Shown: positions 8,472 through 13,416 of the stretch, piece after piece
How the letters are laid out: each line of letters opens with the position of its first letter
Position numbering within the stretch: the first letter of the stretch is position 1
Virus record (IMG/VR): IMGVR_UViG_3300033145_000357
Location: 1 to 43,645 of that record
DNA length: 43,645 nucleotides
Direction: 5' to 3' (one strand)
Source: a virus
Made by a program: the position numbers and the translations under genes
The notes under the pieces: model-generated
Database searches by the model: none
Seen by the model: the letters and a program-made list of their open reading frames with translations, nothing else
What the model was told of the DNA's origin: nothing

Positions 8472-9083
8472 ATGAAAATAGATAAGGCTTTAGAAGCAAT
8501 GAAGAAATCAATAATAGTGAAGGAAGATAAGCCAATAGAGAAGCCCAAGCGTGGTAGACCTAAGGTAATAACAGAGAAGAAGAGAGAAGAGATACTAAGA
8601 GCGGCAGAAGAAGTATTTTTTGTCCAGAGTATTGCGGCTAAGGTGGGAGTTTATAGGGAGAGAATAAGCCAATTAGTGAGAGAAGATAAAGCTTTTGCGT
8701 CCTCCCTCCTACACGCCAGAGACAAATGGATTGCCCAAAAGCAAGCCCTGCTTGAAGAATACGCCAAAGACAAGAAGACATCAGACTGGCGCGCCCTAAA
8801 GTACCTTTTAACCATAGCAGACAGGGATTACAGCGAACGCAAGTACCTTACCGAGGCAGTAGCCAACCAGGACGCCAAGATAATGATGCTTATAAAGGCA
8901 GAACAATTGACCATTGCCTCCAAGCAAGGTAAGAAAATGCTTGAAAAGGTGATAAACGCTGACGTACAGGGTCAAGAAGAGATTAATTTACTCCCCTTCA
9001 AGCCCGAAGACCCCAAGAACAAGGGGAAAGCTAAGACAGTGAAAAACAAAGGGGAAAGTACCCATCCTCCATCGGTGGAGTAA
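8472..9083 (+). CDS. Terminase small subunit-like HTH protein
   Basis: A 203-residue basic protein. It has an AT-hook-like KRGRPK (residues 25-31), then a helix-turn-helix (VQSIAAKVGVYRERISQLVRED, about 50-72), then long helices with WIAQKQALLEEY and WRALKYLLTIADRDYSERKY, a layout typical of phage terminase small subunits and related HTH proteins. Its place upstream of TerL fits recognition of packaging sites. From about 8690 the DNA is clearly more GC-rich than its surroundings, hinting at acquisition. Translation is probably leaderless. An alternative is a regulator of phage or host origin. Confidence 0.6.
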   Translation: MKIDKALEAMKKSIIVKEDKPIEKPKRGRPKVITEKKREEILRAAEEVFFVQSIAAKVGVYRERISQLVREDKAFASSLLHARDKWIAQKQALLEEYAKDKKTSDWRALKYLLTIADRDYSERKYLTEAVANQDAKIMMLIKAEQLTIASKQGKKMLEKVINADVQGQEEINLLPFKPEDPKNKGKAKTVKNKGESTHPPSVE

Positions 9084-10540: not shown

Positions 10541-10738
10541 ATGCCTAAATTAGGTTCAGGCGGAACAAAGAAAATAGGTAGAAATAAAATAAAATGCCAA
10601 CGATATGCTAACGAACATCGTAGAGAAAAGAACAAAATACGTAAGTGGAAAAAGATGATTAAACATTTACCTGATAATAATATGAGAAAAGAGTTGGAAA
10701 TACGGATAAAGAAGGTTGAAGAAAGTATGGGGGCGTAG
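10541..10738 (+). CDS. Conserved small basic phage protein (KKIGRNK type)
   Basis: A 65-residue strongly basic protein. SGGTKKIGRNKIKCQRY followed by EHRREKNKIRKW matches a frequent small phage protein with the GRNK-x-KC-x-RY and HRREKNK boxes; function unknown, possibly nucleic-acid binding near packaging genes. Its last codons GGG GCG TAG are bases 4-10 counted within the RNA gene that starts at 10729, so mRNA and RNA gene overlap. Confidence 0.75.
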   Translation: MPKLGSGGTKKIGRNKIKCQRYANEHRREKNKIRKWKKMIKHLPDNNMRKELEIRIKKVEESMGA

Positions 10739-10817
10739 AGGTTTCGATAGGACTGTCATACCCAGAATGAAAGTGGCAAAATCCTACACTCGGGTTCGAT
10801 TCCCGACGCCTCCACCA
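10729..10817 (+). ncRNA. Minimal tmRNA: tRNA-like domain without messenger region
   Basis: An 89-nt RNA gene. The acceptor stem is GGGGGCG/CGCCTCC (10729-10735/10807-10813) with a G3-U70 wobble (the alanine identity pair), followed by A and encoded CCA. The 5' side continues TAGAGGTTTCGATAGG, the D-loop signature of tmRNA. The 3' side has the T-arm TCGGG-TTCGATT-CCCGA (10790-10806). The helix that in tmRNA leads to the messenger part is TAGGA/TCCTA (10748-10752/10782-10786), capped by CTGTCAT/ATGAAAG around a seven-base loop. AAGTGGCAAAA (10771-10781) resembles the resume-codon context of Bacillus tmRNA. Tag frame and pseudoknots are absent. It should be aminoacylatable with Ala and able to bind SmpB. 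Alternatives: deleted relic, or attachment-site footprint. Confidence 0.78.
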
Positions 10818-10914
10818 AGAGTCGATAATGTTGACTAATGCCACTATTCTAATTCATAAGTGGAATAAGCTCTGGCTGTTACTCTGGCTGTTACTCTGGC
10901 TGTAAAGGAGAAGC
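10818..10914 (+). repeat. Structured spacer with three tandem CTCTGGCTGTTA units
   Basis: Just after the tmRNA-like gene come the stem-loops AGTCGA/TTGACT and CCACT/AGTGG. Then a 12-base unit follows in tandem at 10870-10881, 10882-10893 and, with one change, 10894-10905, ending at the ribosome site of the next gene. The repeat number could vary by slippage. Confidence 0.7.
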
Positions 10915-11997: not shown

Positions 11998-13416
11998 ATG
12001 CCCCCAAACTCAGTAAGTAGTTTTGATTTCTTAGCCCAAAAATATAAAATCAAATTTACCGACATGCAATTAACTGCACTCTGGCTTCTTAACCAATCAT
12101 ATACTAAGGAATTACTCTACGGAGGGGCTAAAGGTGGAGGCAAATCAGTTCTTCTATGTAGATATGCTTGGTTATATTGTAATGCTATAATTGACAAATT
12201 TGATATTCCTCCTTTAAAAAATCCCATACCTATTGGCTTTATGGGAAGACTTCAGGGAGTGGACTTTGACCATACAACACTTGAATCATGGAAACAGTTT
12301 ATTCCCGAAAGCGTTTACACAATTAACTACAAAAACAAAGAAATTGTCATAAGTAAACGTCTTAAAATCTACTACGGGGGACTTGACAACAAAAACATAG
12401 TTAACAAGTTTAATTCTTTTGAAATAGGATTTTTTTGTATTGACCAAGCAGAAGAGGTAGAAGAAGATAAATTAACCGAACTTAAACTTGCTTGCAGAAG
12501 AACTATTAATGGACAGAAAATTCCTTATAAATATGTTTATTCAGCCAATCCAAGAGACTGTTATCTAAAAGAGGCTTTTGTTCTTAATAAAAACAAGAAC
12601 GGAAGAATTTATTTACCAGCCTTACCATCGGATAATAGTTATCTGCCTGATAATTATGTATCGAGAATGGAGTACGTCCTACGGAATAGACCAGCTTTAT
12701 TAAAAGCTTACCGAGATGGATGTTGGGATGTTATGGCTGGTGCTGACCTTATTATTCAACTTGACTGGATTAAGAGAGCATACGAAACAAAACTTTATGG
12801 TGCTGAAAAAAGAGTAATAACTGTTGACCCTGCAAGATTCGGAGACGATGAGACCGTTATTTACGCTATGAAAAACACCGACATAGTTAAGAATAAAATT
12901 TTCGGGAAGCAGGATGAAGTTCATATCTCTAACGAAGTTGAATTAATGGCTCAATCATTTCATCCTTCGGTGATTGTAGTTGATGTTATAGGCGTGGGTG
13001 GTGGCGTGGCTTCTATTTTACGACAAAAAGCAAGGTCATGGAACTGGAAATGTATTATTATAGAGTTTAACGGTGCGGAAAGACAAAAGTCGGGTGTTCC
13101 TGCATACTTTTATAATAGACGAGCAGAAGCTACATGGTTAGCTGGAGAAATGTTCGGGGATAATAAGATACAACTAACCTTTGAAGATAAAGACCTTGAA
13201 AGAGAACTCAATGCTTATAAATATAAATTCAATGGAGACCAATTAATTGTTCAACCCAAAGCTGAAATAAAATTACCAAAAAATTTAGGAAAGTCTCCAG
13301 ACCACGGTGATGCGTATGTGATGGGACTTTGGGCTTTGCAGTTCTGTAGAAAAGAAGCAATAACCAGACAATTCTTTCACAAAACGCAAAGAAAGAGGAG
13401 CTACTTAACCGCTTAA
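11998..13416 (+). CDS. terL: Terminase large subunit
   Basis: A 472-residue packaging motor. The ATPase domain has Walker A GGAKGGGKS (residues 42-50), Walker B FFCIDQAEE (about 145-153) with the catalytic Glu, and a coupling motif YSANP. The RNase H-like nuclease has VDPARFGDDE (about 275), VVDVIGVGGG (about 327) and SPDHGDAYVMG (about 432), supplying the acidic metal ligands. Length and motifs are normal for TerL. It translocates DNA into the prohead at the portal and cuts the concatemer. AGGAGGTGA precedes ATG 11998. The phage belongs to the headful or P22-like packaging group by context; a promoter and RNA gene separate it from portal. Confidence 0.96.
   Translation: MPPNSVSSFDFLAQKYKIKFTDMQLTALWLLNQSYTKELLYGGAKGGGKSVLLCRYAWLYCNAIIDKFDIPPLKNPIPIGFMGRLQGVDFDHTTLESWKQFIPESVYTINYKNKEIVISKRLKIYYGGLDNKNIVNKFNSFEIGFFCIDQAEEVEEDKLTELKLACRRTINGQKIPYKYVYSANPRDCYLKEAFVLNKNKNGRIYLPALPSDNSYLPDNYVSRMEYVLRNRPALLKAYRDGCWDVMAGADLIIQLDWIKRAYETKLYGAEKRVITVDPARFGDDETVIYAMKNTDIVKNKIFGKQDEVHISNEVELMAQSFHPSVIVVDVIGVGGGVASILRQKARSWNWKCIIIEFNGAERQKSGVPAYFYNRRAEATWLAGEMFGDNKIQLTFEDKDLERELNAYKYKFNGDQLIVQPKAEIKLPKNLGKSPDHGDAYVMGLWALQFCRKEAITRQFFHKTQRKRSYLTA

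Follow-up and report, generated by a model that had tools for sequence, protein, structure and literature searches.

A 43,645-bp IMG/VR record, analysed here at its full length and called the window, carries tailed-phage genes for a portal, a major head protein and an endolysin, and between its two terminase genes lies an 89-nt unit whose sequence supports its identification as a phage tmRNA reduced to the tRNA-like domain (TLD) and a capped P2 helix. The unit has the identity of a tmRNA TLD and lacks a tag domain, and units of its kind are selectively maintained across many viruses, with no SmpB in the viral records searched. In the literature that could be reached, TLD-only phage tmRNA had rested on one mycobacteriophage, DS6A (Mao et al. 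2009, RNA Biol 6:355; described in PMC4131195 and PMC11915505). It is thus an already known, barely described kind of RNA, of which the unit in the window is a new member; what is new here is the breadth of TLD-only tmRNAs in viruses and their conservation. The occurrence of at least about 99 distinct units in at least 62 unrelated viral contexts, together with their base-pair covariation, leads us to regard them as a maintained viral RNA class.

Structure and identity of the unit in the window

An earlier note on this DNA had proposed a tmRNA cut down to its tRNA-like domain, with the two diagnostic ends of a tmRNA and a 38-base hairpin in place of the tag region, and had suggested a search with the Rfam tmRNA and tRNA models. 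That search (cmscan) matched window positions 10729-10817 on the plus strand to RF00023 with 53.7 bits (E 1.7e-18 for the window), the model's gathering score being 47. The alignment covers model positions 1-374, from end to end, with about 314 internal model positions reduced to 29 nt, so that only the two ends are aligned and the tag and pseudoknot interior is deleted. Both diagnostic ends were located exactly, the acceptor stem having 7/7 pairs with G3-U70 and an encoded CCA, and the T stem 5/5 pairs. A D region without a stem, carrying GG-N-TTCGA, and a P2 helix that closes onto the TLD complete the features expected of this domain (Table 1); in tmRNA this D region forms the elbow that contacts SmpB. 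Between TTCGA, which ends at 10747, and the CAC linker, which begins at 10787, there are 39 nt, in agreement with the hairpin described before. They consist of a 5-bp P2 (TAGGA/TCCTA), whose first pair is U-A instead of the usual C-G, and the 29 nt inside it, which stand where a standard tmRNA has its tag frame and pseudoknots. The proposed reduction to a tRNA-like domain is thus borne out by the Rfam match, and also by syntenic copies in two close relatives and a viral family in which P2 covaries.

Features of a full-length tmRNA were absent from the unit, the 29 nt inside P2 containing no tag frame, resume codon or stop, and PK1-PK4 being precluded by length. Nor does it have the D stem and anticodon arm of a tRNA; neither ARAGORN nor Rfam called a tRNA, and ARAGORN made no call on the window at 10729-10817. 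A tRNA reading with a 7-nt 'anticodon' loop, ACCCAGA, was dropped, as neither program calls one. The three reading frames from TGGCAAAA are free of stops, as had been stated, and this carries no evidential weight. The lowest-energy fold of the unit (-31.6 kcal/mol, z -2.5) differs from the tmRNA fold, and constraining the unit to the conserved helices gives an energy of -28.2; acceptance of the tmRNA fold is based on covariation and not on energy.

The stop codon of the upstream ORF lies within the unit, and RNase P cleavage at 10728/10729 would be expected to separate it from the rest of that ORF. On the downstream side, window positions 10818-10903 hold a decayed remnant of a tRNA-Trp, of which only the first dozen bases are left, followed by a short tandem repeat, ctctggctgtta. 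Scans for promoters and terminators gave results at the level of shuffled sequence.

Table 1. Positions of the unit, its parts and neighbouring genes in the window, and of the corresponding units in two related contigs
Feature	Position	Strand	Remarks
Possible small terminase	8472-9083		
Upstream ORF, 65 aa	10541..10738	+	final 10 nt, including the stop, overlap 5' end of unit
TLD-only tmRNA unit	10729..10817	+	RF00023 53.7 bits; family model R1 68.4 bits, the unit being one of the 20 training sequences of R1
Acceptor stem, 5' strand GGGGGCG, with G3 of G3-U70	10729..10735	+	7/7 pairs
D region TAGAGGTTTCGA (GG-N-TTCGA)	10736..10747	+	from sequence; same motif or close variant recovered when not imposed
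P2 helix, 5' strand TAGGA	10748..10752	+	pairs with 10782-10786; family covariation
Inner region capping P2, 29 nt, possible hairpin TGTCAT/GTGGCA	10753..10781	+	constrained fold
P2 helix, 3' strand TCCTA	10782..10786	+	pairs with 10748-10752; family covariation
Linker CAC (family mostly GAC)	10787..10789	+	from sequence
T arm TCGGG-TTCGATT-CCCGA	10790..10806	+	5/5 pairs
Acceptor 3' strand CGCCTCC, discriminator A, encoded CCA	10807..10817	+	from sequence
Terminase large subunit	11998-13416		
Unit in L034	7662-7766		105 nt
Unit in L035	6892-6972		81 nt

Conservation among relatives and across viruses

The earlier note had also asked whether homologous units in related phages would prove to be decaying remnants. 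Among the terminase relatives at 75-80% identity, L034 and L035 extend upstream of the terminase gene, and the sequences of L036 and L037 start within it. Both L034 and L035 carry a maintained unit, 1.2-2.0 kb upstream of terminase. When the window was compared with L034 and L035 by blastn over 10.29-12.0 kb (about 1.7 kb), the unit was the sole segment that aligned, its ends being about 79-91% identical. Across the window, L034 and L035 the P2 helix has been rewritten in a compensated fashion (UAGGA/UCCUA, UUAAGC/GCUUAA and UAGC/GCUA). An intact tRNA-Trp(CCA) lies directly downstream of the unit in both relatives, and in the window it is the tRNA that has decayed while the unit is intact. The T arms of the two relatives are imperfect, with 2/5 pairs in L034 and an 8-nt loop in L035, and for this reason we are less sure of a function in the clade of the window than in the family at large. 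The terminase on the L035 contig is, moreover, frameshifted. Relatives further removed, at 54-58% terminase identity, had no unit within the parts of their sequence that were examined.

Pattern scans of IMG/VR indicated a much wider distribution. All patterns imposed U70, and only the first and third imposed G3. The first two scans returned 32 and 118 stretches, which on parsing for acceptor pairing yielded 65 distinct units including the window's; with L035 and four from genomes they make a set of 70, for which P2 was not required. P2 has at least 4 bp in 66 of these 70 and at least 5 bp in 59, with 62 different 5' strands. L092 and L100, the two members of the set that lack G3-U70, are probable false hits. 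With the D motif left free, the third scan gave at least 80 distinct units with 7/7 acceptor and 5/5 T-stem pairs; among the matches listed, 52/80 have GG..TTCGA and 28/80 a close variant (for example TCGAC, TAGAC or TTGAC). A combined filter, which requires a P2 of at least 4 bp and whose counts include the four units from bacterial genomes, retained at least 135 places; these comprise at least about 99 distinct sequences, 64-91 nt long, which fall into at least 62 nucleotide-level clusters. The same structural filter found no unit in 2.43 Mb of reversed loci. Most units are 78-84 nt long, and a second group is of 64-70 nt. Members of this shorter class (L066, L067, L174 and others) have only a very short loop at the end of P2, and L267, with 64 nt, is the smallest of them.

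Covariation was assessed in two alignments. A3, which replaced a MAFFT alignment (A2) that had misplaced the acceptor stem, holds 20 units with a 12-nt D region; because several 12-nt-D units, mostly with a short P2, were left out of it, the unselected P2 figures given above were taken from the 70-unit set. Paired cells in A3 amount to 95.0%, where shuffles give 66.7% and slid controls 44-50%, and two-sided changes number 113 against 33.6, with 8/8 P2 pairs changing on both sides. A5 consists of 83 units fitted to model R1 and so leans toward the structure; over the whole structure 94.4% of cells are paired, there are 508 two-sided changes against 150 in shuffles, and the covariation score is 0.72 against 0.15, while P2 is 88% paired with two-sided changes at 8/8 pairs. 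G3-U70 is present in 83/83 A5 units, where U70 was imposed by the patterns and G3 by the first and third of them. Since helix 1 had been filtered for pairing and the closing pairs of the T arm imposed by the patterns, it is P2 that provides independent evidence. Of the 97 classified distinct units among the matches listed, 76 have GAC as the linker that precedes the T stem (CAC in 5/97) and, as GAC had been imposed in the third scan, the unbiased figure is 43/70. A core RARNCC occurs in the inner region of 50 of the 80 longer units, against 8.4 expected in shuffles.

RF00023 matched 38 of 50 records, 35 of them above the cutoff; 11 of the 50 were terminase relatives that lack a unit. TLD-only units are easily overlooked because ARAGORN, a standard tRNA and tmRNA finder, almost never calls them: among the matches listed, its calls of any kind overlap 7/135 places, those inspected sharing one end only or being spurious, and 0/52 units with the D motif were called as tRNA. 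When several units were compared by BLAST with 50,697 phage records, the matches checked with Rfam proved to be permuted or full tmRNAs or tRNAs and no mini units, the matches in isolate phages being mostly of the permuted type (RF04321). Three further loci were noted. A 595-kb uncultured phage (LR756511; L275, 1411-1547) has an intermediate tmRNA-like unit of 137 nt without an encoded CCA (RF00023 50.4 bits, no ARAGORN call). In Tunturiibacter phage Tunturi_4 (L132) a release-factor gene with an RF-1 domain is closely followed by a permuted tmRNA that had not been annotated (coordinates 1116-1463 and 1468-1877), and in Mycobacterium phage SirSheldon (L134) one tRNA region holds an unannotated tmRNA-model match of 98 bits and a GOLLD RNA of 216 bits (1128-1530 and 2300-2713).

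Analysis of cellular genomes was informative as to the restriction of the units to viruses. A nearly identical pattern, with GTCGAA replacing RTCGAA, gave 20 stretches and 4 real units in 84,980 bacterial and archaeal genomes, compared with 118 viral stretches, and two of the four (L147, L159) adjoin phage terminase genes. Each of the four unit-bearing cellular genomes has SmpB as well as a full tmRNA whose tag is normal. No SmpB was found in the 51 viral records searched, the window and 50 others that carry a unit, many of them fragments, and any SmpB partner would therefore have to be that of the host. One 124-kb record (G020, the source of L042) contains both a TLD-only unit at 46486-46567 and, at 77588-77979, a full-length tmRNA adjoining a tRNA-Ile.

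Possible roles of the unit

The most likely role of the unit, to which we give roughly even credence, is that of a decoy which depends on host SmpB and blunts trans-translation. G3-U70 directs alanylation of tmRNA. We infer that the unit would be co-transcribed with genes of the packaging region and matured by RNase P and 3' exonucleases of the host, that it could be charged by alanyl-tRNA synthetase via G3-U70 or else remain uncharged, and that it would bind host SmpB through its D/T elbow. SmpB-EF-Tu might then carry it to ribosomes that have stalled at the 3' ends of mRNAs; alternatively, the unit might simply hold SmpB. Having neither a resume codon nor a tag, it would be unable to complete trans-translation, and host tagging and degradation of stalled products could be lessened, possibly to the benefit of the phage. 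It has been established that SmpB binds the TLD elbow, and TLD-SmpB-EF-Tu has been crystallised on a stalled ribosome (PMC3968760). A DS6A-like TLD-only RNA over-expressed in E. coli is reported to inhibit tmRNA strongly whether chargeable or not, perhaps by titration of SmpB (PMC4131195, citing Mao et al. 2009; inhibition also PMC11915505). The decoy reading is favoured because a tagless TLD can compete for SmpB and stalled ribosomes but not finish the reaction, and because of this inhibition. It also draws on the Rfam match to the two ends only, the retention of the unit in L034 and L035 and its intact state beside a decayed tRNA-Trp, as well as the P2 covariation of the family, the near-confinement to viruses and the absence of SmpB from the viral records. 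Counted against it are the nature of the precedent, which is over-expression in E. coli, the co-occurrence with a full-length tmRNA in G020, the imperfect T arms of L034 and L035 and the more distant relatives without a unit.

The main rival to the decoy reading is rescue without a tag, in which the charged unit with SmpB takes over the nascent chain, adding one alanine, and the ribosome is freed by drop-off or a release factor, leaving phage proteins untagged. The family keeps G3-U70, CCA and the T arm, which is beyond the need of pure SmpB sequestration if an uncharged version inhibits too. Release is not known to occur in the absence of a resume codon, however, and we consider such a role unlikely. 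Some mitochondria retain a CDS-less tmRNA together with SmpB, and this RNA has been proposed still to aid with incomplete mRNAs (PMC11915505), whereas the DS6A-like RNA is described as an inhibitor and not a rescuer in E. coli (PMC4131195). It is a good deal less probable that the unit acts as a decoy or sensor against a host defence directed at tRNA, tmRNA or stalled ribosomes. The nearly virus-restricted distribution would fit, as would the presence of some units in tRNA arrays (22/135 places within 50 nt of a tRNA, among the matches listed) and the mention of SmpB and tmRNA in the CoCoNuT defence literature (PMC11090510), but the unit offers no anticodon loop to anticodon nucleases and no gene family is common to the unit neighbourhoods, the best recurring in 4/63 clusters.

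The tRNA-like fold might alternatively serve only as punctuation for RNase P cleavage of a polycistronic mRNA, and among the matches listed 14/93 distinct units, the window's included, do overlap the stop of an upstream ORF on the same strand; G3-U70, the tmRNA D motif, P2 and the inner RARNCC core are not needed for such processing, and we consider it very improbable. Hardly any weight can be given to an integration (att) scar or to a decaying remnant of a tmRNA gene once taken up from a host. Att cores carry one half, the 3' one, of about 30-45 bp, whereas here unrelated phages retain the two ends along with a P2 that covaries, and in the window the neighbouring tRNA decayed and the unit did not. 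In favour of a scar or remnant, it is common for phages to have their attachment site in a tmRNA gene (PMC10865867, PMC11915505).

If the inhibitory role of the decoy reading is true, taking control of the host's ribosome rescue would be a frequent part of infection, and the short natural TLDs could serve as they stand to probe SmpB, AlaRS and stalled-ribosome recognition. We suggest tentatively, with slightly less than even credence, that TLD-only tmRNAs form a large and largely unrecognised viral RNA class with its own architecture (P2 capped by a hairpin with an A-rich RARNCC core, or the 64-70-nt short-loop form), distributed across many unrelated phage lineages and providing a general means to switch off or rewire host trans-translation.

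Comparison with known systems

The open-licence PMC literature searched gave no report of how widely such units occur in viruses, of a conserved architecture with a capped P2, or of a class of 64-70 nt. The TLD-only tmRNA of DS6A resembles the unit in the window in being phage-encoded and in comprising the TLD and little else, with no tag frame. It is however a single case from an actinobacterial phage, while the window derives from an unrelated-looking tailed phage, and the U-A first pair of P2 and the CAC linker are listed as further differences, the two RNAs having been compared by description and not by alignment. CDS-less organellar tmRNAs (RF02544 of jakobid and oomycete mitochondria, and those of about 65 bp in Mallomonadaceae plastids) have likewise kept the TLD and lost the mRNA domain. 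These are organelle genes whose SmpB is nucleus-encoded, the mitochondrial ones usually permuted, whereas the unit is a one-piece viral gene. The permuted two-piece phage tmRNA (RF04321) is also phage-borne but has a reversed gene order and a tag, and the unit scores only 18.4 bits against its model. Standard tmRNA (RF00023) shares with the unit, which scores above the gathering cutoff, both ends, G3-U70, the D motif, P2, the T arm and CCA, and differs from it in possessing the tag frame and pseudoknots and in a length of 230-400 nt as against 89.
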